This document shows, one piece after another, positions 1 to 44,970 of a DNA stretch of 44,970 nucleotides. Position 1 is the stretch's first letter; each line of letters starts with the position of its first letter. A program made the position numbers and the translations under genes. The stretch is from a virus. The stretch spans positions 1 to 44,970 of IMG/VR virus record IMGVR_UViG_3300028823_000150. The stretch is one strand, 5' to 3'. The notes under the pieces were generated by a model that was given only the letters and a program-made list of their open reading frames with translations, searched no databases and was not told where the DNA came from.

Positions 1-81
1 AGGAACCAGTGCCACCCATAGCACCCTGCAGGTAATATGGCATCCACTGATTGTAAATGTCGAGTTTACCGGCAGCGGTTT
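1..81. repeat. Left copy of 81-bp terminal direct repeat
   Basis: These bases recur at the right end of the window with 80 of 81 identical; position 71 is G here and A in the other copy. Because the open reading frame on the minus strand continues through the repeat, this is best read as the overlap of a circularly closed assembly or a circularly permuted genome rather than a functional end. Confidence 0.9.
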
Positions 82-22341: not shown

Positions 22342-23148
22342 ATGAAACCTCTTCAAATCAGAAAAGGGGGCGCTGAGGAAGTCTATCGGTGCCCCCGATG
22401 CGGCCATCCAAAGCTGCATATCAACCGAAAACGAGGAGTCTGGTATTGCTTTAGGGAAGGAATAGGTGGACCACTAGCAACCCTAGAAGGGTATTCCCAT
22501 TTGGGACAAGAGACAGGATCCACCGTCGACGAACCGGGCGCAAGGGAAGCCATCGATAATTTTCCTGAGTGTACCTTAACCAGACTCCATCTCGTGGATA
22601 GTGTCCTCTCAGAGGTGATCCACGACTACCTAATCAGCCGTCACTTAACCCCTGCCCAGATTCATAAGTATGCGTATGTTCCCGATGACCCAAGGTTTCA
22701 CGGAAGGGTCGCTCTCTTGTCGCCGGTAACCAAGGCATGGACGGCCAGGGCTTTTCTCCCTGGTATCAAGCCGCCATATCTTAATCCATCGGGAAGCAAG
22801 AAGCCCTGGTTTACCCGCGAATCAGATCGGTACGTGGTAGTAGAGGGGGTGTTCGATGCCATGGCGGTTGAGCGCGGCGGATATGCAGCGGCCGCTCTTC
22901 TCGGGAGTTCGTTGTCCGGTAGTAACATTGATTGGTTCAGGGATTCATTTTGCATGTTGCTTTTGGACCGGCGAACTTCCGAGAAATTATGGTATCTTTA
23001 TGAAACCCTAAGTCCCATCGCCAGGGTACAAGCCAGGTTTTTTGAGTCGATCTTCCCTGAATACAAGGACCTGGGAGAAGTTCCCACCCACCATCTAGGG
23101 AGGTTAAAGGCATTATGGACGATCCCAAAAAGAAGGACGAAGACTTAG
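22342..23148 (+). CDS. DnaG-like primase
   Basis: A 268-residue protein. An N-terminal zinc finger (CPRC at 17-20, WYCF with Cys 36) precedes a short linker and a TOPRIM domain. The TOPRIM Glu motif is VVVEGVFDAMA (E168, D172), and the second acidic strand is LLLDRR (D209), which has only one of the usual two Asp. It would make RNA primers for the DnaB-like helicase encoded two genes later. Shorter than cellular DnaG because it lacks the helicase-binding domain. Similar short primases occur in phages. Confidence 0.75.
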   Translation: MKPLQIRKGGAEEVYRCPRCGHPKLHINRKRGVWYCFREGIGGPLATLEGYSHLGQETGSTVDEPGAREAIDNFPECTLTRLHLVDSVLSEVIHDYLISRHLTPAQIHKYAYVPDDPRFHGRVALLSPVTKAWTARAFLPGIKPPYLNPSGSKKPWFTRESDRYVVVEGVFDAMAVERGGYAAAALLGSSLSGSNIDWFRDSFCMLLLDRRTSEKLWYLYETLSPIARVQARFFESIFPEYKDLGEVPTHHLGRLKALWTIPKRRTKT

Positions 23149-23519
23149 ACGCAGCCGCCCACAAAGTCATCACCCCGGACATGGAAGCATTCATGAAGAT
23201 CTACTTGTCCATTCCATTCGGCGGTTCTCCAAAGAATGTCGACGAGGTATGGGAAGAGGCTAAGAAATTCTGCCAGTATCTGAGGGAGGCAGGATCCGCA
23301 TTCATGCTGGTTGTCGCCCCACCGGGTACAGGCAGAGACTTGCCCAAGGAGGGAAAGATATTCATGTTCACCGACATGAAGGGCGGAGGATTAGTCGACA
23401 GTTGTTACCTACTTCTCGACTCCAGTCAGTTACTCATCCCGTTCGTGAACGCTTGTTTGATCCGACTTTCTAACAGCATGAATTTTGAGAACCCAGATGG
23501 CCCGGGGTTCCACGCTTGA
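23115..23519 (+). CDS. Unknown protein between primase and helicase
   Basis: A 134-residue protein overlapping the primase end by 34 bases. Features are an acidic Lys/Asp-rich start, an FGGSPKNVDEVWEEAKKF helix and FMLVVAPPGTGRDL. The last looks P-loop-like but lacks the GK(S/T) sequence. Position suggests a helicase or primase accessory factor, possibly a loader. No family recognised. Confidence 0.5.
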   Translation: MDDPKKKDEDLDAAAHKVITPDMEAFMKIYLSIPFGGSPKNVDEVWEEAKKFCQYLREAGSAFMLVVAPPGTGRDLPKEGKIFMFTDMKGGGLVDSCYLLLDSSQLLIPFVNACLIRLSNSMNFENPDGPGFHA

Positions 23520-24730
23520 AACTATTAGAACGCCAGCTCCTGAACATACTAGCTAACTACCCATTCTACAAACAAGTTAGAGACTATGTTCGGGATGATA
23601 TTTTTGTGACCGATGAAGCACGGCTAATTTTCTCGTGCATGAAAGAAGTGTATGAGAAGTATCGCCGGACTTTCGATTGGGGTGAGATCAAGACCCTGCT
23701 CTATGAACGGGTAGACCAGGAGTCAAAGAAAGCGGAGTTCCGTAAGTTCCTTCGCCAAGTTCAAGCCTCGTCCATCGGTTCAGACCTGGCTATGGACCTA
23801 CTGGTCAAGACCAGGCAAAAGGCAATGGTTCGCCGCATCATCCAGGAAGATGTGATTCCATTTCTGGACGGCCCGGAAGCCTTGCCTCTTGACAGGATAA
23901 AGGATCGGCTGCTCAGTGTCCAAATGACTAACAGGGCCGAAGAGATATACAACTATTTGGACGTGAAATCAAGGAAGCATTACGATCAAACCCAGGCATG
24001 CCCTACCGGCCTTTCGAGGGTGGACAGTGTTATGTACGGCGGTTTATATCCGGGCGAACTTGGTGAGCTTAGCGGAGCCCCGGAAGACGGGAAGACAATG
24101 ATCGCGATAAACCTCTGTATCTCCCCACTCATTGAGGGCCTGGAGGTCTTCTACATTACGTTGGACGAAACCGACGAAGTAATAGCCAAACGCTTTGATC
24201 TCCGTATTCTTGGAAAAAAGGCAGAGGACCTGAACCTAGGGAAGGAGCGATTTCCATCATGGGTAAATGGCCTCAAGATCATAGACAAATCCGGAAGCTG
24301 TACTGTAGACCAGGTGGCTAGTGTGATCGAGCGGTATGGTGTTCCTGGAATGCTGATGATAGATGGGGGAGACCTAATGCTCTCCTCATCCCGCAAGACG
24401 GAACGACGACATCAACTCGGGGAAATCTACGCGGATTATTTAAGATTATCCCGGAAATTTAAGTTGCCAGTTTGGGTCACAACGCAAAGCACGGCGCGCT
24501 CAAAAGATAGCGAGAATAAAAAAGGGACGGACCTGTCCGAGGCGAAACTAGAAAAGTTATCTGTGGCATCGGCTGTGATCATGATCTCCAAAACTGAGGA
24601 TCCAACAATCATCAAGCTGCGGTTTGCCAAGCTTCGCCGTCCACCAGGCCCTCGATCCATTTTGATAGAAGTAGACAGAGCCAAGCAAATGATCAGAGAC
24701 ACGGGAGGGATGGAAGATGAGAGTGTATAG
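23516..24730 (+). CDS. DnaB-like replicative helicase
   Basis: A 404-residue protein. Residues 1-140 fit the DnaB N-terminal helical domain. The RecA-like core has the Walker A GAPEDGKT (187-194), Walker B GMLMIDGGD (about 280-288) and the WVTTQST motif that follows in hexameric helicases. The start is a TTG overlapping the preceding stop (TTGA); no suitable ATG exists nearby. It unwinds DNA at the fork with the adjacent primase. The C-terminus overlaps the next gene by 14 bases. Confidence 0.85.
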   Translation: MKLLERQLLNILANYPFYKQVRDYVRDDIFVTDEARLIFSCMKEVYEKYRRTFDWGEIKTLLYERVDQESKKAEFRKFLRQVQASSIGSDLAMDLLVKTRQKAMVRRIIQEDVIPFLDGPEALPLDRIKDRLLSVQMTNRAEEIYNYLDVKSRKHYDQTQACPTGLSRVDSVMYGGLYPGELGELSGAPEDGKTMIAINLCISPLIEGLEVFYITLDETDEVIAKRFDLRILGKKAEDLNLGKERFPSWVNGLKIIDKSGSCTVDQVASVIERYGVPGMLMIDGGDLMLSSSRKTERRHQLGEIYADYLRLSRKFKLPVWVTTQSTARSKDSENKKGTDLSEAKLEKLSVASAVIMISKTEDPTIIKLRFAKLRRPPGPRSILIEVDRAKQMIRDTGGMEDESV

Positions 24731-25463
24731 AAATTTAGTTGAAGCTATGAAGGAAACGGAAAGGGATCTTTTTGAAATGGGTGTCCTAGTTAAAGGCATC
24801 AAATCCCAGGGCAAAGACATAGGAAAGGCCGGGTGGACCAGGGAGATAATAGGACATACCTATTCCATACCGTTAACCTGTGCTGAACAGTGGTCCCAGA
24901 TAGAACCGGCATTGGAAGCCCTGGAAATCCGCCCCGGAAGAGGAGAAGACTTCTGCTCGTACATACTCATGGAGATAAGTGATCGACTAGGTCGGACCGG
25001 CAAACAAAATCCTGGGAATGCCTACCTTTGGAGATTAGGATACTGGAGAAACCACATGGAGCTTGATGGCAAATTCTCCTATACCTATGACGAACGGATT
25101 GCTCCGTGGCTGGATAATATCATTTCTCTCCTTCGCAGAGATCCCGGAACTCGCCAGGCTATCCTTCCCATCTGGCGTACCTCCCCCGACAATCCCAGAG
25201 TCGTGCAGGGAACACGAAGAGTGCCCTGCTCCATGTATTACCAGTTCTTCATCAGGGATCGTTTTGAAGGAACTGTTCTTGACATGCACTATGTCATGCG
25301 GTCTTGCGATCTCTACACTCATTTTCCGTTTGATGTGGTGTTTGCTTGTAAACTCGGGTTGTATGTAGGAAAACGGTTGGGCATAGCCCCGGGTCGCTTG
25401 GTCCATACCGTTGGCTCATTACATACTTACTACTCTGACCTGGAGAAAAGAGGCATATTCTAA
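24717..25463 (+). CDS. Thymidylate-synthase-family enzyme, dCMP hydroxymethylase-like
   Basis: A 248-residue protein. The nucleophile is Cys171 in RRVPCSMYYQF. The substrate motif is RSCDLYTHFPFD (195-206), where the final Asp206 falls exactly at the thymidylate-synthase Asn177 position. T4 dCMP hydroxymethylase also has Asp there and prefers dCMP. The phrase VGSLHTY (His236, Tyr238) matches T4 gp42 VGSLHVY. The protein ends about ten residues later, shorter than thymidylate synthase (about 264) and close to T4 gp42 (246). The reaction would be hydroxymethylation (or methylation) of dCMP with a folate donor. A dUMP enzyme is less likely. Coupled by overlap to helicase and to the next gene. 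Confidence 0.75.
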   Translation: MRVYRNLVEAMKETERDLFEMGVLVKGIKSQGKDIGKAGWTREIIGHTYSIPLTCAEQWSQIEPALEALEIRPGRGEDFCSYILMEISDRLGRTGKQNPGNAYLWRLGYWRNHMELDGKFSYTYDERIAPWLDNIISLLRRDPGTRQAILPIWRTSPDNPRVVQGTRRVPCSMYYQFFIRDRFEGTVLDMHYVMRSCDLYTHFPFDVVFACKLGLYVGKRLGIAPGRLVHTVGSLHTYYSDLEKRGIF

Positions 25464-25690
25464 TGAAAGATGTAATCCGGGCATGGCGGGGAAAGGAAGA
25501 TTTTATCAGAGTTGTGGATGCCGCCAGGACTTATTTAGCGCGAGCACTAGATGACGTTGACCATAACGATTTTACCACAGCTCATACCAAAGTCAAAGAA
25601 GCCAGGTCGTTATTGGGCGTGGCCCTGGTGTATATTGGGGAGGGTATACATGAAACTCACGACCTATCAGATAAAAGAACCACACCATAA
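25463..25690 (+). CDS. Small helical protein
   Basis: A 75-residue helical protein (KEDFIRVVDAARTYLARALD; HTKVKEARSLLGVALVYIG). Begins in a TAATG overlap with the thymidylate-synthase-like gene and overlaps the next gene by 41 bases. Function unknown; location suggests a role linked to nucleotide metabolism. Confidence 0.55.
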   Translation: MKDVIRAWRGKEDFIRVVDAARTYLARALDDVDHNDFTTAHTKVKEARSLLGVALVYIGEGIHETHDLSDKRTTP

Positions 25691-26276
25691 TCAGCTTGTC
25701 TACTTCTGCCGTGGTGGAAATGATAAGCAACTTAGGGAGTTAATCACCAGAGTAGACGGCGGTATAGACGAGGACCCCGGGGAATTTGGTAGTGGTATAG
25801 TTATTCCTAACCGGATGAATCCAAGGAAGGCTCCGACTTTCTGGATTTGGATAAAGCATTGGCATGGATCCATTGGGTGCTATAAGTTTATGGACCATGA
25901 AGTCACGCATCTGATCCAGTATCTAATGGACTGGTTAGAGATTCCGTGGAGTGATGATACCATGGAGCCAATAGCCGCCTTGCATGAATACTACTTTGGG
26001 ATGATACTAACCGTATTGCGTAAAGGAGGAACGCCATGTACATTTTCGCATCCACCGCCTGGGACTTTTGGAAAAGGCTCAACGAGACAATGTTCACGTC
26101 CCAGAAAGCCCGCGGCTATTGCTCAGGCTACCGCAAAACTCTCTTCTCTGTTGACGGAGAAACCGCCAAGTGGGGAACCCTTGATCTTAAGTTCGAAGAC
26201 ATTGGATACAAAGAAAGAAAACGGGACCAGCTCTATGAATTCTACTATCCCGAAGAAGGAATTGACAAACTCCTAG
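25650..26276 (+). CDS. Protein with HExxH zinc-peptidase motif
   Basis: A 208-residue protein from the ATG at 25650. HEVTH at 83-87 lies in a helix and is followed 19 residues later by Glu106 (DTMEPIAALHEYYFG), the layout of a zincin metallopeptidase or a degenerate relative common in phage early regions. The last 80 residues are encoded in DNA that also encodes the next gene in another frame (241-base overlap) and look low in structure, so the functional protein may end near residue 130. Lies between the two thymidylate-synthase-family genes. Confidence 0.55.
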   Translation: MKLTTYQIKEPHHNQLVYFCRGGNDKQLRELITRVDGGIDEDPGEFGSGIVIPNRMNPRKAPTFWIWIKHWHGSIGCYKFMDHEVTHLIQYLMDWLEIPWSDDTMEPIAALHEYYFGMILTVLRKGGTPCTFSHPPPGTFGKGSTRQCSRPRKPAAIAQATAKLSSLLTEKPPSGEPLILSSKTLDTKKENGTSSMNSTIPKKELTNS

Positions 26277-26857
26277 AGAAAATGCAAACCCAGGGCCACA
26301 AGATATGCTCCCTTGCCCTGGATATGGTGGGCCCAAAGAAAAAGGAAGAAGTGGTAGTAGCCACTAAGGGTCCATGTCTTAAGACCCTGGTATTCAATAT
26401 GGCCAGGAACCAAACCTACGGCGTCCATGTATTCTATCGAACAACGGAGTGCACCAAGAAATTTCTGGCCGACCTTATATTTCTGGATTTGGTCTTTAGA
26501 AGAATTTACCCCGGAGGCACCCACCGTGGTTTGCATGTTTCATTCCATTTCGCGTCCATCTATTGCCATGTCAAACAATGGCCGCTACTGGACATTTTGC
26601 TGGGGGATGAATGCATGCGGTGGAAATGGTTGGACGAGGATCGTGAGGAAAAAATTGCAAGTTATATGGCCGGCCTCAATGAGGGAAGGATTTCATCTTA
26701 CGGAATGGTACGCAATGGCGAACGTTGGTACCTGAAAAGAAAGGGGATACCAGAATGTACAGAACAGGACAATCCAATTTCAACGCCAAGCAAATCCGCA
26801 GAAATCAAGGGCGACTCAGAAGACTTCGCTTTCCCGGGCCGCTACGAGCGCCGCTAA
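26036..26857 (+). CDS. Second thymidylate-synthase-superfamily protein
   Basis: A 273-residue protein with weaker resemblance to the family. GPCLKTLVF carries a candidate nucleophile Cys114, comparable to GPCL of archaeal thymidylate synthases. The motif YRTTECTKKFLAD (Arg135 to Asp146) aligns with RSxD...PFN and again places Asp at the Asn177 position. SFHFASIY fits the SHxAHIY strand, with Ser174 replacing the usual His. The pattern suggests a cytosine-specific or non-catalytic paralogue of the 24717 enzyme. AAAGGAGGAACGCC precedes the ATG. Superfamily assignment is inference. Confidence 0.5.
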   Translation: MYIFASTAWDFWKRLNETMFTSQKARGYCSGYRKTLFSVDGETAKWGTLDLKFEDIGYKERKRDQLYEFYYPEEGIDKLLEKMQTQGHKICSLALDMVGPKKKEEVVVATKGPCLKTLVFNMARNQTYGVHVFYRTTECTKKFLADLIFLDLVFRRIYPGGTHRGLHVSFHFASIYCHVKQWPLLDILLGDECMRWKWLDEDREEKIASYMAGLNEGRISSYGMVRNGERWYLKRKGIPECTEQDNPISTPSKSAEIKGDSEDFAFPGRYERR

Positions 26858-27003
26858 AGCCGATGGGCTTCTGGGATTTATGGAGAGCCCTGCCCTGGCA
26901 TAAACTTCCCAAATTGATCTACGCCTGGACCAGAATGTCGTACAAAAACTGGAAAGCCAAGCGAGATCAAAAGAAGAGAGTTTACAAAAGTCTCACAAGA
27001 TGA
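26755..27003 (+). CDS. Small basic protein
   Basis: An 82-residue, very basic protein (QIRRNQGRLRRLRFPGP; KNWKAKRDQKKRVYK). It overlaps the previous gene by 103 bases, so its start is uncertain; GGGGATACCAG precedes the ATG at 26755. Its 3' end overlaps the promoter of the polymerase gene. Possibly nucleic-acid binding. Confidence 0.45.
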   Translation: MYRTGQSNFNAKQIRRNQGRLRRLRFPGPLRAPLKPMGFWDLWRALPWHKLPKLIYAWTRMSYKNWKAKRDQKKRVYKSLTR

Positions 27004-27009
27004 TATAAT
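26981..27009 (+). promoter_or_regulatory. Near-consensus promoter before the DNA polymerase
   Basis: TTTACA, exactly 17 bases, TATAAT. The predicted start, seven bases after the -10 box, is the A of the polymerase ATG at 27016. No Shine-Dalgarno site is present and an in-frame stop lies at 27001, so the transcript would be leaderless. Confidence 0.75.
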
Positions 27010-27015
27010 TACATT

Positions 27016-29574
27016 ATGGGAACGATTAAAGATCGCGTCAGGAACCCAGAATGTAAGCTTTGTGATCTCCACAAGACTGCTGAATACATCTGTCTCATTG
27101 GTACCGGCCCGTCGCAGCCGGACATCCTTGGGGTAGGGGAGGCTCCTGGACAGCGAGAAGATGATTCTGGCAGGGCCTTTGTGGGGAAGGCGGGACAGCG
27201 CCTTAACCTCATTCTTCAGCACGTTGGGCTCAGCCGGGAGCGTGATATCTTCATCTGCAATGCAGTGAAATGTCGCCCTCCCGAGAACAGAAAGCCCACC
27301 GTTCGGGAGGTTAAGGCCTGTCGCTGCTATCTTGAAAAGGAGATCGAACTTCTTAAACCAAAGATGATTGTCTGCTTTGGCCGAGTGGCTGCTGATTCTG
27401 TGGTAGGTCAGGGCTTAAGTGTTGAGGATCAACGAAGAAGAATATTCAAGTGGGGTGGGACTCCAGTAGTAGTTACCTATCACCCCTCTATCATCATGCA
27501 CCGTGGCTCCAAGTTTGGGGTGGTCATAGCGGAGGACATAGAATGGGGAATAAAGCGAATCATAGAGGGGGAACCAGAAGAGGAGGATCCGTTCTTTTAC
27601 ACGACCGACGATGTCCTTCTAAAAGACTACCTCCGGACCTCTACCTTCTGGTCGTTAGATGTCGAAACCAACAACACTTTGGAATTCATGGACCCATCCA
27701 TGAGGTTAGTATCCGCTGCTGTCTCCCCTGCGAAAAACGTAGCAATTGTGAAATTGGGGGAAGAGGCCGCGGTAAGTTTATGCCGAGAAGTTTTATCAAA
27801 TCCAAAGAACGTTGTATGCGGGCACAATATCAAAGCGGACTTAAGGTGGTTAAGGCGGCGAGGGATCAAACGATCGCAGATACAAGCGAAGATCTTGGAC
27901 ACTATGGTATTGGCAAGTCTGGACGACGAAAACTATCCCAACAGGAAACTGCAGCACCTTGCCATGATTCACTTAGGTGCAAAGCCCTGGAAGGACCAAG
28001 CCGAAGAAGTAGGACCAGCCGGCCTAAAAGAAGAAGACCTAATCAAATATAATGGTAAGGATGTTATCTGGACTAGACGCTTAGCTAAGTTCTTCCTCAA
28101 GAGAATCGACAAGCAGAACCTTTGGAAGTCATTAAATATAGATATGGAGACCATCAAGGTTCTCACAGAAATAGAACTGGATGGCATTCAACTGGACCGC
28201 TCTATATTCTATGACCTGGTCCAGGCATACGAAAAGAAGCTCAAGAAACTAAGATCCAAGTTACCGATTAAGAATCCTGAATCAACAGAACAGGTGTCTG
28301 ATTATATATTTAATGCCCTGAACTTAGTCCCCTTACCAGAAGAGAAGCCAGGAAAGAGGGGTAAATACTCCACCAGAGAAGAAGTCCTGATTAAAATGGA
28401 GGAGGAAGATAACAGTGGATTCATCAAGCGTCTGTTGCGTTACCGAATGTATGCAACAAGGAAGAAAATGTTTCTTGATGGACTCGATGGAGAAAGTGGC
28501 ATACTGCCTTTCATTGATTATCGAGGTAGGATTCACCCCACTTTCAACGTCGCAAAGGTCGCGAAAGGTGGGGGAGATAAGGACTCTGATGGGGGAACTA
28601 CAAGCGGTCGAACGTCGTGCAAAGATCCTAACCTACAACAGTGGCCAAGAGAGCAAGAAGACATCCGACGAGAGCTGAACATCAAACGAATGGTGATCTC
28701 TCGTTGGGAGGGAGGGGAAATAGGTGAAGCCGACTTTCGCCAAGGTGAGGTATTTCTTGCGGCTAATGAAAGCGGTGACAAAGCAATGCTTGGGGTCCTG
28801 GCTAAAGGTGGAGATTTCCATCAGCAGGCCGCGGCTGATACGCTTCATGATGGCGAAACTGAGAAGGTAACCAAGTTTGAAAGGAAGGCGGCTAAGGCCG
28901 TAGTCTTTGGAAAGATATATCGGGCGGGAATCAATAAGATTATGAGGGCCTTGAACCTGCCGTATGAAACGGCGGAGCATTGGTTCAATACCTTTACCCG
29001 TAGATTCAAGGGGCTAGAGGTATTCATGAAGGACCGAGAATCCATTATCCTGGAACAGAAATGGATTCGTAACTCTGCCGGTAGAATCAGGCATTTACCC
29101 GGCGCATCTAAGTTCACGGCAGAAGGTCGTGAGATGATACGATCGGGATGCAATATGCTGATCCAGGGCCTACTGGGGGATATAGCAAAATGGGGTATGG
29201 TCAGATTCTATTGGGCCCTTAAATCTGAGGGCCTAAAGACTAGGGTCCTAGGAATAATCCATGATGCTATTCTATTTGATATATATCCTGGGGAAAGGAA
29301 CAGGGCCGTATATCTAGTAGCAAGGGAACTGGAGGCCGCCCAACATGATATCTGTAAGTTAAAGATTTCTCTGACTGTGGATGTAAGTGTCGGGCCTAAT
29401 TGGCTTGACCAGAAAAAACTCAAGAGGGAGGAATATGACGGCAAGTCGACAGGCGCGAAAGAAATACAACATGCTGATGAGCCCGGCCAAACGGAAGGCA
29501 AGAAATCAGCGCAAACAGCTCAACAAATTATGGAGGGAACATGGCAGGAAAAACTGATTTGGAAGGCAGCTTAA
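27016..29574 (+). CDS. Uracil-DNA glycosylase (family 4)-DNA polymerase A fusion
   Basis: An 852-residue protein of three parts. Residues 1-185 are a family-4 uracil-DNA glycosylase: GEAPGQREDDSGRAFVG (41-57), YHPS (155-158), and iron-sulfur Cys at 13, 16, 86 and 102. Residues 208-365 are a 3'-5' exonuclease with LDVET (D215, E217), GHNIKADLRW (D275) and YNGKD (D349). Residues 500-820 are family A polymerase: motif A ADFRQGEV (D573), motif B R623-K627-F631-Y635, motif C HDA (H749, D750). The usual HDE Glu is Ala here. Similar UDG-polymerase fusions are known in SPO1-type phages. It replicates DNA and would excise uracil or recognise it. Confidence 0.9.
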   Translation: MGTIKDRVRNPECKLCDLHKTAEYICLIGTGPSQPDILGVGEAPGQREDDSGRAFVGKAGQRLNLILQHVGLSRERDIFICNAVKCRPPENRKPTVREVKACRCYLEKEIELLKPKMIVCFGRVAADSVVGQGLSVEDQRRRIFKWGGTPVVVTYHPSIIMHRGSKFGVVIAEDIEWGIKRIIEGEPEEEDPFFYTTDDVLLKDYLRTSTFWSLDVETNNTLEFMDPSMRLVSAAVSPAKNVAIVKLGEEAAVSLCREVLSNPKNVVCGHNIKADLRWLRRRGIKRSQIQAKILDTMVLASLDDENYPNRKLQHLAMIHLGAKPWKDQAEEVGPAGLKEEDLIKYNGKDVIWTRRLAKFFLKRIDKQNLWKSLNIDMETIKVLTEIELDGIQLDRSIFYDLVQAYEKKLKKLRSKLPIKNPESTEQVSDYIFNALNLVPLPEEKPGKRGKYSTREEVLIKMEEEDNSGFIKRLLRYRMYATRKKMFLDGLDGESGILPFIDYRGRIHPTFNVAKVAKGGGDKDSDGGTTSGRTSCKDPNLQQWPREQEDIRRELNIKRMVISRWEGGEIGEADFRQGEVFLAANESGDKAMLGVLAKGGDFHQQAAADTLHDGETEKVTKFERKAAKAVVFGKIYRAGINKIMRALNLPYETAEHWFNTFTRRFKGLEVFMKDRESIILEQKWIRNSAGRIRHLPGASKFTAEGREMIRSGCNMLIQGLLGDIAKWGMVRFYWALKSEGLKTRVLGIIHDAILFDIYPGERNRAVYLVARELEAAQHDICKLKISLTVDVSVGPNWLDQKKLKREEYDGKSTGAKEIQHADEPGQTEGKKSAQTAQQIMEGTWQEKLIWKAA

Positions 29575-30263
29575 AGGAACTGGAGGGGTTGGAGTCAGAG
29601 AATTACGCCACCATCCAGGAGGGGAAGAACACACTCCGCATCCTTCCGGCTTGGACCCAGAAGGGCCCGCATGCTGGGAGATTCTTCTTCAAGGCCATCC
29701 TTCATTATGGGTTCACCAGTGAGGGAAGGAACAGGGCATTCCCCTGCATGCGGATGTTTGACTCGGCAGCCGATTGCCCCGTCTGTCAGTTCATTGAGGC
29801 CCTGAAGGAAGAGGGGTCCAAAGAGCTGGACAAGATCGCCGCCCGGCTTCGTCCCCAGTCCAGGTATTACGTGAACGTTCTCAATCGAAGATCAGCTTCC
29901 CCGGCTCCTCTCATCTATGGGCTTAGAACCAGGATGATGAAGACCCTGCGGAGTTATCTGCAGGACCCGGACTACGGGGACATCACTGATCCTGAAGACG
30001 GCCGTGACATTGTCATCGAGCGAACTGGTCAGGGCCTTCAGACCCGCTATGAAATTCGCATCAAGCCCAAGACTTCGCCCATAGGAGTTGAAGGCTGGGA
30101 GTCTAAGCTCCACAAGTTATCGAAGGAAGTAGTGGAGAAGATCGATGAGAAGGGCCTGCGTTCAAGACTCCAGGAATCCTACGGCAAATTGTACTCAAAG
30201 GTAACAGGAATTACCGCTGAGCCCGCTGAGTCCGAAGACGAGGATGACGAAGATGGTGAATGA
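29541..30263 (+). CDS. gp32-like single-stranded DNA-binding protein
   Basis: A 240-residue protein. A T4 gp32-type zinc site is visible: His55, Cys69, Cys79 and Cys82 in CPVC. An OB-fold core surrounds it, with RYYVNVL and KTLRSYLQDPDYGDITD characteristic of this group. The C-terminal tail is acidic (ESEDEDDEDGE), as needed for partner recruitment. It coats ssDNA at the fork. It overlaps the polymerase end by 34 bases with GGAGGG before the ATG. Confidence 0.85.
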   Translation: MAGKTDLEGSLKELEGLESENYATIQEGKNTLRILPAWTQKGPHAGRFFFKAILHYGFTSEGRNRAFPCMRMFDSAADCPVCQFIEALKEEGSKELDKIAARLRPQSRYYVNVLNRRSASPAPLIYGLRTRMMKTLRSYLQDPDYGDITDPEDGRDIVIERTGQGLQTRYEIRIKPKTSPIGVEGWESKLHKLSKEVVEKIDEKGLRSRLQESYGKLYSKVTGITAEPAESEDEDDEDGE

Positions 30264-31371
30264 GACCAAGGTGCTCCTGAGACAGGCGGACACCCTGGCC
30301 TTTTCCGCTAGTCGGAGTGGACATCCCTGCCCCCGCCACATCTTTTATGGCATAATGAAAGTGCCGAGGAAGATACCGAAGCGAACCCAGAAGATCTTTG
30401 AGGAGGGGCATCGCCAAGAGGAATTAACTCTCAAGGAGTTGAAGGCCGATGGGATTCGCTTTAAACATTCGGTTCTTGGGTCGGGGCAACAAGAATACGC
30501 CCGAGATGTACAACTTAAAGGGAAACCAAAATTTCTTGTTACCGCACATCCGGACGCCATTTACAACAGAGGATTCTCATCCGGGGTATTACTCCCAGGT
30601 TGCCCCATTGAAATCAAGGGGCTTCACCAGAGAACATGGCAGGGTATAAAGGACTATGCAACTATACCCCCTAACTACTATGCCCAAATCCAAATCCAGA
30701 TGTTTGTCCTTGATGCGCCGGCTTGCCTTTTCGTTGCCAGGAACAAAGGCTGGGGCAAGAACAGGCCTGATGATGGTAGGCATAAACGGATCGTGGTTCT
30801 TAGGGACGAGGAGTGTCTTAGAAAGATTTTTAAGGCGCTGTCCAGAATAGCCCAGGGCGTATGCGTGGACCGTGAACTACCCCGGCCGCTTTGGCCACCC
30901 GGAGATGACGCTGAATGTGACAAGTGCTTTTATCTTCAGCGTTGTCTCCTGGATGAGGAGGGGGATAGGAAGTTAGAGAAGCGAGAACCAAAGCCACTAC
31001 TGGAAATAGCCGAGCCGATCTTTGTCAAGAAACTCCATTCGCTCTTCCTATTCAAGGAGATGCTTAAGCGGCTGGAAAGTCTAGAAGATCGCCTGACTTC
31101 CGAATTGAAAAACTTTATGAAGGAACATCAGGTGAAAGAACTTCTGGGTGGCGCCGTTCGTTATTCGCTTCGTGATGTATCCAAACAAGTCCCGGACATG
31201 GATGAAATCCGTAAGCGGCTTGGTGGAGAAATACCAATGAAGGCTAATAACTATCAAGCCCTATACAAAACCAAAGTCAGGGATCTAACAGAGGAGGAAT
31301 ACCAGCTTATCAAGGGGGACATACCAAAGCCACGGGCCCTCCTTATAGGAGCAACTGATGAATGTGAGTGA
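30244..31371 (+). CDS. Cas4/RecB-like PD-(D/E)XK exonuclease with Fe-S cluster
   Basis: A 375-residue protein. The nuclease core shows TAHPD (D104), EIKG (E123, K125) and a QIQIQ stretch (about 148-152) of the Cas4/AddB family. Four cysteines (29, 225, 228, 234) fit an Fe-S cluster that closes the fold. C-terminal residues 250-375 form a helical extension (LFLFKEMLKRLESLEDRLTS). It overlaps the SSB gene by 20 bases; an ATG at 30253 is an alternative start. It probably processes DNA ends in recombination-dependent replication. Confidence 0.8.
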   Translation: MTKMVNETKVLLRQADTLAFSASRSGHPCPRHIFYGIMKVPRKIPKRTQKIFEEGHRQEELTLKELKADGIRFKHSVLGSGQQEYARDVQLKGKPKFLVTAHPDAIYNRGFSSGVLLPGCPIEIKGLHQRTWQGIKDYATIPPNYYAQIQIQMFVLDAPACLFVARNKGWGKNRPDDGRHKRIVVLRDEECLRKIFKALSRIAQGVCVDRELPRPLWPPGDDAECDKCFYLQRCLLDEEGDRKLEKREPKPLLEIAEPIFVKKLHSLFLFKEMLKRLESLEDRLTSELKNFMKEHQVKELLGGAVRYSLRDVSKQVPDMDEIRKRLGGEIPMKANNYQALYKTKVRDLTEEEYQLIKGDIPKPRALLIGATDECE

Positions 31372-31786
31372 TGTGGAACAAATTGCCCCTCCCGTAGGGG
31401 ATATGTTAGAGGAAATCTTTCGCCGGCAAAAAGAGTTATTGGATAAGTACATTCCGATAGAGATAAGGAATGGAAGGAGTTTTCCGGTATCCAGGCCCCC
31501 ATTTAAAACGGGTGATCTAGATCATCCGGCCGGCCAAGCTTTCCTGAAGGATGAAATTATGCGGGTGGTCATTGAATTAGTGGAGGCTGCTGACTGCCTG
31601 AAGAATAAATATTGGAAGACTACTCAGATGCAAACTGACCTCTTCCACTTTATCGAGGAATTGGTTGACGCCTTCCACTTCTTCGTAGAACTCATGATTT
31701 GGCTGGATGTTGATGCCAGAAAATTGAGGGATATGTATCTGAAAAAGAATGCGGTGAATCAATTCCGGCAAAGGACAAACTATTGA
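31358..31786 (+). CDS. All-alpha NTP pyrophosphatase, dimeric dUTPase/MazG-like
   Basis: A 142-residue protein with the all-alpha pyrophosphatase motifs: IELVEAAD (E73, E76) and EELVDAFHFFVEL (E101, D104), then MYLKKNAVNQFRQ, the dUTPase-type C-terminal signature. It hydrolyses dUTP and possibly dCTP to the monophosphate; T4 dCTPase-dUTPase gp56 belongs to the same superfamily. In this genome it would supply dUMP or dCMP for the thymidylate-synthase-family enzymes and remove dUTP. Substrate specificity cannot be read from sequence. Confidence 0.75.
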   Translation: MNVSDVEQIAPPVGDMLEEIFRRQKELLDKYIPIEIRNGRSFPVSRPPFKTGDLDHPAGQAFLKDEIMRVVIELVEAADCLKNKYWKTTQMQTDLFHFIEELVDAFHFFVELMIWLDVDARKLRDMYLKKNAVNQFRQRTNY

Positions 31787-35283: not shown

Positions 35284-35682
35284 ATGACAAGCCCACTGAA
35301 TCCTTTTTGGAATCCTTTTTGGACATTCTTTATTCCGTGTGCATTGAGTGTTTTAGTTTTACAAAAAGACAGGCTGATTGTAGAAGCGTTGGGGGAGTGC
35401 TGGCATGAATATGATGGTACATCTGCCCGGTGTAAGCATTGCGGAAGCCTTGTTTATATCCCCCACGACAGACCGAATCTTGCCACCCCCGAAGGCTTCT
35501 TCTGGATTTGGGAACGGGCGCAGAAGAAGGAGTGGTGGCCTATATTTAAAGCGTGGTTTTGGGGTCATGATGGAGTAAGACATTTACCCATGATGATTCC
35601 TGAAGAATTTATTGACCCCATCCGTGGCCGCGATGCCCTGGCCGAATGGCTGAGGAATAATGAGGACAAATGGAAATCATAA
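35284..35682 (+). CDS. Unknown protein, tandem paralogue 1
   Basis: A 132-residue protein. An N-terminal hydrophobic/aromatic segment (NPFWTFFIPCALSVLVL) precedes a domain shared with the next gene: KDRLIVEALGECWHE, CKHC, ATPEGFFWIWERAQ and a closing AEWLRNNEDKWKS. Zinc coordination by CKHC is possible. The shared domain resembles small phage proteins of unknown function. Confidence 0.6.
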   Translation: MTSPLNPFWNPFWTFFIPCALSVLVLQKDRLIVEALGECWHEYDGTSARCKHCGSLVYIPHDRPNLATPEGFFWIWERAQKKEWWPIFKAWFWGHDGVRHLPMMIPEEFIDPIRGRDALAEWLRNNEDKWKS

Positions 35683-35714
35683 AAAGGCAATACTCTATTG
35701 ATGGTCAGGAATAT
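35661..35714 (+). repeat. Direct repeat, left copy (54 bp)
   Basis: Matches 36048-36101 with two mismatches. It covers the end of paralogue 1 and the start of a small ORF, so it marks the boundary of a tandem duplication. Confidence 0.8.
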
Positions 35715-35730: not shown

Positions 35731-36069
35731 ATGACCGACCAGGAAAAAGACAAGCTGATTGTGGAGGCGTTGGGGGGGTGTTGGCATGAATGGGAATTTC
35801 CAACAGACAACCCCAATTTGGCTATATGCAGAAAATGCCACACCTTTCCTCCGCGTTTAAATTTTGCCACCTGGGAAGGCTTTGGCTGGTGGTGGGAGAG
35901 ATTTTTAAAACAGAAGTGGGCCAGAGAATGTATCCATGATTATTTAGTCACAGAATATGAATGGGATGAACCCGATCCTTGGTATGTACCCTTTGATTTT
36001 CTGGGTATAAAAGGAAGAGATTTCTTAGCCGAATGGCTGGAGGCCAATGAGGACAAATGGAAATCATAA
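35731..36069 (+). CDS. Unknown protein, tandem paralogue 2
   Basis: A 112-residue protein. KDKLIVEALGGCWHEW, CRKC, ATWEGFGWWWER and AEWLEANEDKWKS match paralogue 1. It lacks the hydrophobic N-terminus of paralogue 1. GGGGGAGGTAAT precedes the ATG. Unknown function. Confidence 0.6.
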   Translation: MTDQEKDKLIVEALGGCWHEWEFPTDNPNLAICRKCHTFPPRLNFATWEGFGWWWERFLKQKWARECIHDYLVTEYEWDEPDPWYVPFDFLGIKGRDFLAEWLEANEDKWKS

Positions 36070-36101
36070 AAAGGCAATACTTTATTGGTGGTCAGGAATA
36101 T
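36048..36101 (+). repeat. Direct repeat, right copy (54 bp)
   Basis: Partner of 35661-35714, 52 of 54 identical. Spans the end of paralogue 2 and the start of the 36057 gene. Confidence 0.8.
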
Positions 36102-37413: not shown

Positions 37414-38496
37414 CTAGAATCCAAATTTGGCCTTATATTCACCCAGTATTCTCGCCAGGGTCTCTTCGCCACCCGGGGCTCCGGCTAGCTTTTCTTGAGC
37501 CGACCTTCGAGCAGCGGCCAAGGCCTTCTCCGATTTCTTCTTCCACTTCACATCAGTTTCCTCAAGAGCCGGACTAAGTCGCTTTCTTCCAGGCATATAC
37601 TTCCCACGGTACTTAGAGATAGTGGCGGCTGGAACTAGTTTAGCCTGGGTTTCTGCCCAAGCTCTTAGTCTTGGATTCTCGGAATAGGTAGCTAGATACC
37701 CCATCAGGTCCTGAAAGTTATGAACATTGGCTTCATGATATAGAGTGTTTAGCCAGGCTTCTGACGGAGTACCTTTTCCCATTCCCTTTGGTAAGGTGTT
37801 GTATACCGGGCCCACCGGTTCCGCAACAATGGCCGCCTTCATCCCCTCGACATCGTCAACCTTTATTTGTGGGGCGATGTATTCATGCCAAATCTCTTTT
37901 CCTCTTTTGGTTTTTTCTAGGCGTAGATAAAGATCACCCAGATCTTGCTGATACATGCCGGCCATAATGGTTCCTGGTTGTACCTGTCCCGGTGTTCGTA
38001 TTTCTTGCAGGACATCTCTTGGTAGATAGATTAACTCGTCCAGATGTTCAAGACTTCCAGCCGGGCGCATAGCCTCCAGTTCCTTCATCAGACCTTTACT
38101 ATACGGATTCCAACGACCTCCCTTCTTCAACGCTCCAATAACACTTCGGAAAAACTGCGGCCTGCTGATGGATGCCATAGCCAAGGCCGATCCCCCAGCT
38201 CCAGCCCCCGGAAGATAGGGACCAAGAAAGCTAGCTCCCTCAGCTAATGACCCCGGAATTAACGATCCAAGAATGGATTTCTGTAACCAATTTTCTTGGC
38301 CAGGAGATAGTTCTTCAAGCTTTTGTTGAGCGGTCTGTTGGGCAGTTCGAAGGCCGGTGTCAATATTGCCCAGAGAGCCGGGCCATGGTGTTTGACCAGG
38401 ACCTAGGTAGGATCCGACCGAAGCCGCCGGATTTATGGAGCTTAGCGGAATACCTAATACCTTGTTTAGAATAAGTGCCCGTTCTTCTGGACTCAT
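37414..38496 (-). CDS. Putative virion protein near the ejection genes
   Basis: A 360-residue protein. The N-terminal 120 residues are Gly/Pro/Ala-rich with hydrophobic patches (GPYLPGAGAGGSALAMA). The middle and C-terminus are helical (LEHLDELIYLPRDVLQE; KSEKALAAARRSAQEKLA). It starts in a four-base overlap with the ATP-grasp gene. Composition and operon suggest an internal virion protein. A short HEANVH occurs but is not a zincin motif. Confidence 0.55.
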   Translation of the reverse strand: MSPEERALILNKVLGIPLSSINPAASVGSYLGPGQTPWPGSLGNIDTGLRTAQQTAQQKLEELSPGQENWLQKSILGSLIPGSLAEGASFLGPYLPGAGAGGSALAMASISRPQFFRSVIGALKKGGRWNPYSKGLMKELEAMRPAGSLEHLDELIYLPRDVLQEIRTPGQVQPGTIMAGMYQQDLGDLYLRLEKTKRGKEIWHEYIAPQIKVDDVEGMKAAIVAEPVGPVYNTLPKGMGKGTPSEAWLNTLYHEANVHNFQDLMGYLATYSENPRLRAWAETQAKLVPAATISKYRGKYMPGRKRLSPALEETDVKWKKKSEKALAAARRSAQEKLAGAPGGEETLARILGEYKAKFGF

Positions 38497-39761
38497 GTAA
38501 ACAACCTCTTGTAATACTTAGTAGGAAGTTCCCAGCCATCGGTTCGATATTGCCTATTAGCTAGGGTCAACTTCTTGAGGTGCTTATCTACTTTATCTCT
38601 GGCTTCCTCGATTGTCTTTCCCTTGTCGGATACTTCCATAACCACCCCGTCGGAGCCGGCCGTCACAAGGTCGTAATTCTTATCCCTTTGCACGTCAAGT
38701 AACCAGCAATGTTCAAAATCCGGTATAACCCCTACAGGGATGCCCGCTGATTCCTCGTAGATCTTCGCCTTTGCCTCCTTGTCTGCAACATGAAGTGGAT
38801 AAGGAGGAATAGAAACACGCACGCAATAAGCAAAATTATCGTTAAGTTTCGCCTTAGGAATCCTACCATTTGCAACGGCCTCGAAAAGAGTTGCCGGGTC
38901 TCCTTCCAGTAATTCAAGAAAAGCATATATAGCATTGTATCCCAACCTCGCTGTAAATTCTAGGCCCCTTGGTTCACCATTTACGATAATAGAATTGATG
39001 TCCAAGGGACCTGAATATTGATTCTCTTCCAGGATCCTAAGCAACCTAGGAGTAAATAACTTATTCAGGATCCTAGTATCCTGGGCCTTAAATACTATGG
39101 ACGAGGCACATCCGATACTTGGCCCAAGATCGTCGTTCATCATCTTCTTACGCTCAAAAGTATGAGTGCTAAGGGGCGGTATGGGACGGCCTTTGGAAAA
39201 CCACATTTCGGTGGAAATCTCCGGGCCCTCGAAGGCCTCCTGCAATAAACAAGGTGTCCTGGCCGGCAGTTGCTTCTGATCCAGGAGATACTCCAGGTAC
39301 ATAGTCATGTGGTCTTTGCTGGGAGAAACATAGGTAAAAGAAGTGTCTTCGTTTCCCAGGGGCTTAAGGACCCATCGCCCTTTTAGCTCTTTGAGGGCCT
39401 TTCGACATTCTTCCAAAGTATGGAACTCATGAGTTTCCCCGACATTGATACCAACCCTACGCATCGTACGAAGGCCAAAACTACGATCCAATTCGAGTTT
39501 GTCCTGGAATTTACTAGCCCCAAATACAGGGTACTTGTCCCTTAGATCCTCGGCCAATTCCCCGTTTTCTACCATATCAAACAGGACTATAGTATCAGGG
39601 GACAAGCCATCTTCATATGCCTTGACCTTGGATAAGATTCCTGTATATTGATCCCTGAACTCCTCGTGGTCAATATATACCTGGACCTTATGTCCCCCCG
39701 CCTGGAGCTTATCGGCTAGCCCCAATGCATCCCCATGTAAGGACCAGAGTAAGAATTTCAT
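38493..39761 (-). CDS. PurD-like ATP-grasp ligase
   Basis: A 422-residue protein close in length to PurD (429). Residues 80-105 (FGASKFQDKLELDRSF) match PurD's GPTAGAAQLEGSKAF. WVLKPLG (K133) is the nucleotide lysine. DLGPSIG (211-217) matches DTGPNTGG. LEFTARLG (267-274) matches IEFNCRFG, with Thr in place of the Mg-binding Asn. A C-terminal domain with SDGVVMEVSDKGKTIEEA matches PurD's. It would ligate a carboxylate to an amine using ATP. It sits with four-base overlaps between virion genes, unusual for a purine enzyme; a modified-base or virion-modifying role is possible. Confidence 0.8.
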   Translation of the reverse strand: MKFLLWSLHGDALGLADKLQAGGHKVQVYIDHEEFRDQYTGILSKVKAYEDGLSPDTIVLFDMVENGELAEDLRDKYPVFGASKFQDKLELDRSFGLRTMRRVGINVGETHEFHTLEECRKALKELKGRWVLKPLGNEDTSFTYVSPSKDHMTMYLEYLLDQKQLPARTPCLLQEAFEGPEISTEMWFSKGRPIPPLSTHTFERKKMMNDDLGPSIGCASSIVFKAQDTRILNKLFTPRLLRILEENQYSGPLDINSIIVNGEPRGLEFTARLGYNAIYAFLELLEGDPATLFEAVANGRIPKAKLNDNFAYCVRVSIPPYPLHVADKEAKAKIYEESAGIPVGVIPDFEHCWLLDVQRDKNYDLVTAGSDGVVMEVSDKGKTIEEARDKVDKHLKKLTLANRQYRTDGWELPTKYYKRLFT

Positions 39762-43576: not shown

Positions 43577-44970
43577 TTAATATCCATAAACTGGGTTCGT
43601 GTAGATTTCATCCATACCGGCTTGTGTGGGCGACCCACCTATATTTCCAGTATTACTTCCCCACCCGCCCATAGAGTTCATCAAATCGCTATAGCCCTTA
43701 TAGGCGTTAAGTCCACCGGATAACCCCTGAAGAGCCGCAGCCACATAATTTGGCGATTGCCCAACCGTTGACATCTGAGTAGATGAAGCCCCACCAGATG
43801 TGGCTTGAAGCAGGTTGAGAATATCACTCCACTGTGGTTGCATCATGCCCTGCATCTGCTGAGCCAGGGTCATCTGCTGTGAAACCGGGGCATAGCTAGC
43901 TGTAATCGCGGCTAGCAAAGGATTGTATTGAGCCGCCCCATAAGCAGTTCCGGCCATTAGCGGGGCATACTGTCCAGCCTCGGCCTGGCTTCTTGCCAGT
44001 TGCATTGATGGGCCCATGGTGGTCATTCCGGGAAGATACGTCCCAAGAGCTTGACCGAGCATACCGGCCCCTAATTGCCGCTCCTGACCGAATAAGGTTC
44101 CGGCCAAATTTCCGAGCTGAGTGTTCAACCGATCTGCGGCTAACTGTCTGGCTAGAATTGCCCCTGAACCGGAATACCCGCCCATCTTCATGGCTTCAGC
44201 CCCAAGAGCGGGCATGGTCTCTTCCTTAAAGGACTGAATTAGTGGATTAGCCGCTGTCTGATAGGCCGTCAAGAATCCAAGGGGGTTCTGAACTGGATCA
44301 TATTGCCCGCCAAGAATATTGGCCACATTTCCAATTCCCATGTTAATCAGGGCGTTCTCCCCTTGATCCTGATAGGGGGTATAAGCCGGATAAGCCGAGG
44401 ACAGAAGCTGCGGAGACCAGAACTGACCCTGTTGGCCCCATAAAGACCCGAGATTATCGGTTGGAAGTTGCGATTGTAAACCACCCACTGTTTCCCAATA
44501 ACCTGGCTGGGTATTAGCCCATTCCTCAAAAGTAGGAACTGTGGCATTTATGTCTTCCTGCCATCCACCTTCACCAGTGTCGACATATGGCCGCTTCCAA
44601 GCATCTTTATAGGACTGGTACTTTCCCTGCATCTCCTGATTGAACATCTCCTGAGTATACAGGTTTGTGGCCGATGGGACATTTCCGGGAGTAGAAGGAG
44701 TAGCAGCCCCTCCACCAGACGGTGCAGCAAATGGGTTATAGGTAGTCCCTGATGGAGCCCACCCTCCACCACCAGTAGTCCATCCGCCCCCTCCCGCTGG
44801 CATAGTCCCTACCCCCATTTGAACAGGGGCTCCAAACATTTGGCCGATATTAGTCATACCAGCATAGGGTGATGTTTGTCCGGACAGAAAGGAACCAGTG
44901 CCACCCATAGCACCCTGCAGGTAATATGGCATCCACTGATTGTAAATGTCGAGTTTACCAGCAGCGGTTT
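43577..44970 (-). CDS. Ejection-type virion protein, C-terminal part
   Basis: C-terminal part of the protein that starts at 232 (514 residues in the circle). It is Gly/Ala/Gln-rich with many MGG and GQ runs, and a central helical region (FKEETMPALGAEAMKMGG; LARQLAADRLNTQLGNLA). A run of hydrophobic small residues and Gln suggests a membrane-active conduit protein. The first ATG to the left of the window end (44932) is an internal Met, not the true start. Confidence 0.7.
   Translation of the reverse strand, partial: TAAGKLDIYNQWMPYYLQGAMGGTGSFLSGQTSPYAGMTNIGQMFGAPVQMGVGTMPAGGGGWTTGGGGWAPSGTTYNPFAAPSGGGAATPSTPGNVPSATNLYTQEMFNQEMQGKYQSYKDAWKRPYVDTGEGGWQEDINATVPTFEEWANTQPGYWETVGGLQSQLPTDNLGSLWGQQGQFWSPQLLSSAYPAYTPYQDQGENALINMGIGNVANILGGQYDPVQNPLGFLTAYQTAANPLIQSFKEETMPALGAEAMKMGGYSGSGAILARQLAADRLNTQLGNLAGTLFGQERQLGAGMLGQALGTYLPGMTTMGPSMQLARSQAEAGQYAPLMAGTAYGAAQYNPLLAAITASYAPVSQQMTLAQQMQGMMQPQWSDILNLLQATSGGASSTQMSTVGQSPNYVAAALQGLSGGLNAYKGYSDLMNSMGGWGSNTGNIGGSPTQAGMDEIYTNPVYGY
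44890..44970. repeat. Right copy of 81-bp terminal direct repeat
   Basis: Same 81 bases as the window start, with one substitution (44960 A versus 71 G). The mismatch suggests either a strain polymorphism in the source population or a sequencing error close to the contig end. Confidence 0.9.

Follow-up and report, generated by a model that had tools for sequence, protein, structure and literature searches.

The 44,970-nucleotide window analyzed here, the entire IMG/VR virus record IMGVR_UViG_3300028823_000150, encodes two proteins of the thymidylate synthase (TS) superfamily, TS-A and TS-B, close to its replication genes. TS-A is predicted to be a dCMP-specific pyrimidine C5 enzyme resembling dCMP hydroxymethylase. 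TS-B is, judging by profile comparison and a structural model, a member of the same superfamily that forms its own, very divergent family apart from TS-A. What is new here is TS-B as a family, together with its genetic association with TS-A, and the two may be part of a common, largely overlooked cytosine modification system. This module very likely modifies cytosine at C5, and 5-hydroxymethyl-dCMP is its probable product.

TS-A departs from ThyA at the positions that distinguish cytosine-directed enzymes. In the numbering of Escherichia coli TS, used for TS-A throughout, the pyrimidine-selecting residue Asn177 is replaced by Asp in 97 of 98 relatives; the single exception is a ThyA-like paralog from locus L046 that has Asn177, His147, and Gly173. 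His147 is changed to Ser or Thr in 97 of the 98 (Ser in the window protein). In a published association study, positions 177 and 147 of TS were those most strongly associated with contigs of cytosine-modified phages, and modified contigs mostly had Asp177 (PMC8670742). Cys146, Trp80, Tyr94, Arg126, Arg166, and Asp169 are found in all 98 relatives, and Glu58 is found in 84. The window protein has Glu58, Trp80, Tyr94, Arg126, Cys146, Arg166, Ser167, Asp169, and His207, with only Arg127 changed, to Gln. Its chain ends 12 residues after His207 (median 12, n = 98), compared with 57 to 60 residues in ThyA and 30 in T4 gp42. Where ThyA has Asn177, His147, and a closing tail, the window protein has Asp, Ser, and this 12-residue extension. 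The residue comparisons included T4 gp42, the TS of phage Xp15, ThyA, SPO1 gp29, and four flavin family enzymes. The AlphaFold2 model of TS-A has a predicted local distance difference test score (pLDDT) of 91.5 and a predicted template modeling score (pTM) of 0.89. Both this confident model and the TS-A profile match, in the PDB, 9iqu, the CMP 5-hydroxymethylase MilA (second-best family by profile), and T4 gp42. A second TS-A-like paralog is encoded at L043:7596-8534 and at L060:8368-9300; it has Asp177, with Asn at the position of Ser167 and Ala at that of His207.

TS-B of the window has no match in Pfam or NCBIfam, and its sole PHROG match below 0.001 is phrog_34294, a family of unknown function. 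Of 44 members of the TS-B family, none has a match to any relevant Pfam family, while phrog_34294 is matched by 27. Profile-profile comparison with hhalign aligns TS-A and TS-B with a P value of 5e-5, placing the Cys, the Arg, and the Asp each in register. The Arg-to-Asp spacing of 11 is shared by TS-A, TS-B, E. coli TS (166/177), and T4 gp42 (168/179). The AlphaFold2 model of TS-B (pLDDT 82, pTM 0.81) retrieves, among the Foldseek matches listed for the PDB, only dCMP hydroxylases or hydroxymethylases and thymidylate synthases, with 9iqu at the top (E value, 7.9e-07). Cys114, Tyr70, and Asp146 of TS-B are conserved in all 79 relatives, and Arg135 is conserved in 76 of them. Retention of Asp at the Asn177 position in 97 of 98 TS-A and 79 of 79 TS-B sequences is not due to chance. 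The sequence-only reading of this DNA had proposed two TS-superfamily proteins with Asp at the selecting residue in both, which these data bear out. The idea that the two are equivalent dCMP hydroxymethylases finds no support, TS-B falling in a separate, very divergent family.

From its sequence features we infer that TS-B is a nucleotide-binding and probably catalytic protein that acts as a partner of TS-A or as a follow-on enzyme. It retains the phosphate Arg together with the Cys and the cytosine-selecting Asp, but an Arg126/127 pair is not conserved in its alignment, and position 207 lacks His. The N-terminal half of TS-B is too divergent for the position of Glu58 to be located in it. A simple heterodimer, in which TS-B would supply the cross-dimer Arg126/127 to complete the TS-A site, is unsupported, there being no conserved Arg column in this uncertain alignment. 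Also rejected is the view of TS-B as the counterpart of the gene next to the RB69-type synthase, as gene 65 of phage moskry shows no match to the TS-B hidden Markov model (HMM). Automatic annotation names TS-B "pyrimidine hmase synthase" in two records, indicating that the resemblance had already been partly picked up by pipelines.

The linkage of the two genes is seen in both directions. When loci are collected with TS-B, 57 of 60 have TS-A no more than 5 kb away, and when they are collected with TS-A, TS-B is present in 60 of 82; both counts include redundant contigs, and the TS-B-seeded scan stems from one large TS-B clade. These figures suggest that TS-B is the more dependent member of the pair. 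Single-protein scans of IMG/VR retrieved no locus with TS-B and one with TS-A, so that an alignment query was needed; the alignment-based scan yielded 474 TS-A relatives, and 80 loci were studied. Among annotated phages, tblastn finds distant TS-A relatives in Brevundimonas, Mycobacterium, Gordonia, Rhizobium, and other phages and in gut metagenome records, and distant TS-B relatives in 18 records, mainly of Serratia, Pseudomonas, and Brevundimonas phages. The two genes are adjacent in the annotated records examined, where the usual arrangement is kinase, all-alpha nucleotidase, TS-B, TS-A, dCMP deaminase, polymerase, and the pair is found repeatedly among Serratia, Pseudomonas, and Brevundimonas phages. 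The module is kept across very different phages. Mycobacterium phage NoShow (host M. smegmatis mc2 155) shares this arrangement and is a likely further case, the match of its gp55 to the TS-B family being weaker (3e-14 with a widened model). Some loci contain two TS-B copies. Mirror-tree comparison of TS-A and TS-B gives r = 0.84 and a partial correlation of 0.32 after correction for polymerase and nucleotidase; because all genes of the module covary, it is uninformative about TS-A/TS-B coevolution. A literature search, whose reach did not extend to the two main 5-hydroxycytosine papers, found no description of the TS-A/TS-B pair. The paper on phage Serbin mentions only a kinase, a TS, and a deaminase. 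Brevundimonas isolates, including Polewnik, have been typed by their EcoRI patterns, from which nothing clear follows about 5-hydroxymethylcytosine (PMC10070969). Two loci have several TS family genes: L046:2667-6352 has four tandem TS family genes (TS-B, an Asn177 ThyA-like gene, TS-B, and TS-A), and in L102 (Bacteroides phage BF486P2) two Asp177 TS family genes, annotated as dCMP hydroxymethyltransferase, flank a dUTPase gene.

The all-alpha enzyme downstream, which the sequence-only reading had described as dUTPase/dCTPase-like, indeed belongs to the all-alpha nucleoside triphosphate pyrophosphohydrolases by both homology and metal-site motifs. It matches T4 gp56 with 44 bits in a family HMM comparison and by BLASTP with 38% identity over the last 42 residues, reaching the shared C terminus. 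Each of the 24 nonredundant loci that encode a trimeric dUTPase also encodes the all-alpha enzyme. This argues against a function confined to dUTP and suggests a dCTPase role. With Asp177, the loss of His147, and the short C terminus of TS-A, this gp56-homologous neighbor gives the cytosine-directed pathway good support.

Among characterized enzymes, T4 gp42 is a close parallel to the proposed activity of TS-A. Gp42 lacks the C-terminal tail that closes over the folate in TS and uses Glu60, Cys148, and Asp179, with Glu60 activating the folate and Asp171 taking part in the pterin water network (PMC6400193). TS-A keeps the equivalents of Glu60, Cys148, Asp171, and Asp179 and likewise lacks the TS tail, and in both phages the genes lie near replication genes. 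In contrast to gp42, the TS-A family has Gln or Lys at the second phosphate-binding Arg (Arg127) and His at Gly173. The window also differs from T4 in its additional TS-B and in a polymerase that fuses uracil-DNA glycosylase (UDG) to PolA instead of a B-family enzyme. MilA, matched by the TS-A profile at 2.6e-16, is longer (about 325 residues) and acts on a ribonucleotide in an antibiotic pathway. The TS of Xanthomonas phage Xp15, of the MetaGPA type, resembles TS-A in Asp177, Thr at position 147, and neighboring genes for a nucleotidase-like hydrolase and dCMP deaminase. It differs in having 62 residues after His207, in keeping Arg127 and Gly173, and in an accompanying carbamoyltransferase; the two neighbor proteins compared include no TS-B.

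A T4-like precursor route, from dCTP through dCMP and 5-hydroxymethyl-dCMP to modified cytosine in DNA, is the interpretation we favor, with fair confidence. The all-alpha enzyme would convert dCTP to dCMP, keeping plain cytosine out of the phage DNA. TS-A would then transfer the one-carbon unit of methylene-tetrahydrofolate to C5 of dCMP and, without the C-terminal tail by which TS keeps water out, would release 5-hydroxymethyl-dCMP. TS-B may act with TS-A or after it, either as a heteromeric partner or as the enzyme of a second step. The triphosphate could be made by a host kinase or by an unrecognized one, and the UDG-PolA polymerase would insert it. The sequence-only reading had suggested 5-hydroxymethylcytosine or a further modified cytosine; this interpretation is partly supported, well as to cytosine but not as to the exact product. 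A more speculative and rather doubtful extension is that TS-B is an active enzyme with undescribed chemistry, or that TS-A and TS-B form an obligate heteromer, in a cytosine modification that proceeds at the mononucleotide stage with no glycosyltransferase. For example, 5-hydroxymethyl-dCMP from TS-A could form an exocyclic methylene adduct through the invariant Cys of TS-B, to which a nucleophile other than water adds.

The main gap in this pathway is the triphosphate step. The record classes the contig as linear, but the 81-bp overlap of its ends makes it likely that this is a full genome of about 44.9 kb, assembled as a circle. None of the scans of the window with Pfam, PHROGs, and kinase HMMs turned up a dNMP kinase, a dCMP deaminase, ThyX, or a glycosyltransferase, and no Walker A kinase was seen besides the helicase. 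As the sequence-only reading had noted, the dHMP kinase and DNA glucosyltransferases that complete hydroxymethylcytosine replacement in T4 are not found, and both appear to be truly absent from the genome. In loci L018 to L031, which share the gene order of the window, the deaminase is mostly kept and the kinase is almost absent within the stretch examined.

Several observations weigh against the T4-like route. No kinase for modified dCMP is found in this apparently complete genome, and the dCMP deaminase common in relatives is not found either. The folate-contact position Gly173 is His in 92 of 98 TS-A relatives. The top PDB match of the TS-A model is 9iqu, the dCMP hydroxylase AfhB of phage HY126 with dCMP, and the nearest solved structure to TS-B is again this flavin-dependent hydroxylase; a related entry, 9iqc, is described in its title as a riboflavin-dependent monooxygenase containing dCMP and flavin adenine dinucleotide. 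The flavin-dependent dCMP hydroxylase also scores highest with both the TS-A and TS-B profiles among the reference enzymes compared (for TS-A, 77 bits versus 54 bits for T4 gp42). The part of AfhB displayed in the match has identical counterparts in RB69-like phages, moskry (Mosigvirus) among them. Mosigvirus phages attach arabinose to an oxygen at C5 of cytosine, a route that begins with a TS-superfamily 5-hydroxy-dCMP synthase (PMC13390438). The AfhB/RB69-like enzyme shares with TS-A and TS-B the TS fold, Asp177, a Cys at the catalytic position, and a short C terminus. TS-A or TS-B might accordingly be a flavin-dependent 5-hydroxy-dCMP synthase of the RB69 type, yielding DNA with 5-hydroxycytosine or its glycoside, an alternative we regard as unlikely. 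Phe58, Asn169, and Val173 typify the flavin family, whereas TS-A has His at 173 and is folate enzyme-like in Glu58 (84 of 98), Trp80 (98 of 98), and Asp169 (98 of 98); the flavin pattern comes from four sequences, three of them without Trp80, and a function has been assigned to the RB69/HY126 type alone. Moreover, AfhB and its relatives have sugar-nucleotide neighbors, and the window has no arabinose or sugar-nucleotide genes. Because Glu58, Trp80, and Asp169 are as in T4 gp42 and the tail is missing, folate-dependent hydroxymethylation of dCMP is favored for TS-A, and 5-hydroxymethyl-dCMP is preferred over 5-hydroxy-dCMP even though the nearest structure is a flavin enzyme. For TS-B, whose N-terminal half aligns poorly, the flavin-type residues do not discriminate.

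The absence of the folate-closing tail also bears on whether TS-A is a dCMP methylase, making 5-methyl-dCMP for 5-methylcytosine DNA as in phage Xp12. A single Asn-to-Asp change allows TS to methylate dCMP (cited in PMC8670742), but TS-A stops about 12 residues past His207, and the similarly tail-less T4 gp42 makes the hydroxymethyl product, leaving methylation improbable. Ordinary thymidylate metabolism, with TS-A making dTMP, the nucleotidase serving as a dUTPase, TS-B a decayed paralog, and the DNA unmodified, is equally improbable. It would fit the annotation of TS-A relatives as thymidylate synthase, the dUTPase_2 family of the nucleotidase, the dCMP deaminase and "thymidylate kinase" of the module in relatives, and a UDG-fused polymerase suited to uracil exclusion. 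It is at odds with Asp177 in nearly all TS-A relatives, the lost His147, and the short C terminus, as well as with the second, trimeric dUTPase in 24 loci and the ThyX or Asn177 ThyA that some relatives carry beside TS-A. Decay of TS-B would not be expected to leave its Cys and Asp invariant.

If hydroxymethylation or another C5 modification of dCMP is correct, then several hundred viral contigs, along with Serratia, Pseudomonas, and Brevundimonas phages and probably Mycobacterium phages, contain a cytosine modification module that is filed under the names "thymidylate synthase" and "hypothetical protein." Such a module would be relevant to evasion of restriction and CRISPR by these phages and to the range of modification-dependent defenses that act on them. 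TS-B raises the question of why a dCMP-modifying enzyme has a divergent TS paralog that is rarely seen alone. The pair occurs in cultured phages, among them Pseudomonas phage PMBT14 (host P. fluorescens ATCC 13525), Brevundimonas phage Polewnik, and Serratia phages Opt-155 and Serbin, which makes any modified base accessible to identification.

The genes are ordered TS-A, TS-B, polymerase, single-stranded DNA-binding protein, exonuclease, nucleotidase (Table 1), the third and second from last separating the polymerase from the nucleotidase. The sequence-only reading had the module surrounding a UDG-fused polymerase; the fusion is confirmed, but both synthase-like genes lie on the same side of it. 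A UDG-PolA fusion is also found in 23 of the 64 nonredundant TS-A loci with a polymerase.

Table 1. Coordinates of the module, its neighbors, and the contig ends in the window
Feature	Position	Strand	Evidence
Left copy of terminal overlap	1..81	.	80/81 identical to 44890-44970
TS-A, predicted dCMP-specific pyrimidine C5 enzyme (dCMP hydroxymethylase-like), 248 residues	24717..25463	+	Pfam Thymidylat_synt 2.5e-14
TS-A Cys171 codon, catalytic nucleophile (E. coli Cys146)	25227..25229	+	Cys in 98/98 relatives
TS-A Asp206 codon, pyrimidine selector (E. coli Asn177, T4 gp42 Asp179)	25332..25334	+	Asp in 97/98 relatives
TS-B, divergent TS-superfamily paralog, 273 residues	26036..26857	+	hhalign, AlphaFold2, Foldseek
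TS-B Cys114 codon (E. coli Cys146 position)	26375..26377	+	Cys in 79/79 relatives
TS-B Asp146 codon (E. coli Asn177 position)	26471..26473	+	Asp in 79/79 relatives
Polymerase: N-terminal family 4 UDG, 3'-5' exonuclease, PolA (DNA_pol_A)	27016..29574	+	UDG, 3'-5' exonuclease, and DNA_pol_A matches
gp32-like single-stranded DNA-binding protein	29541..30263	+	Pfam gp32 2.7e-11, phrog_1192 1.8e-32
Cas4/RecE-like exonuclease	30244..31371	+	phrog_1990 2.6e-15, phrog_434 7.9e-13
All-alpha nucleotide pyrophosphohydrolase, predicted dCTPase/dUTPase	31358..31786	+	dUTPase_2 1.2e-11
Right copy of terminal overlap	44890..44970	.	1 mismatch versus 1-81

Between TS-A and TS-B, an open reading frame at 25551-26276 (+) contains an HEVTH metalloprotease-like motif. 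It overlaps the start of TS-B by 240 bases in another frame, and a different end or a frameshift is possible. A 134-residue protein at 23115-23519 (+), adjoining primase-like and helicase genes, shows weak similarity to nucleoside 2-deoxyribosyltransferase (phrog_355, 3.7e-04). At 38493-39761 (-), flanked by two large probable virion proteins, is a PurD-like ATP-grasp protein (GARS_A, 1.4e-07) with relatives in only three phage records. The window also contains an 83-bp direct repeat, at 35632-35714 and 36019-36101, with copies that are 87% alike and spaced by 387 bp.

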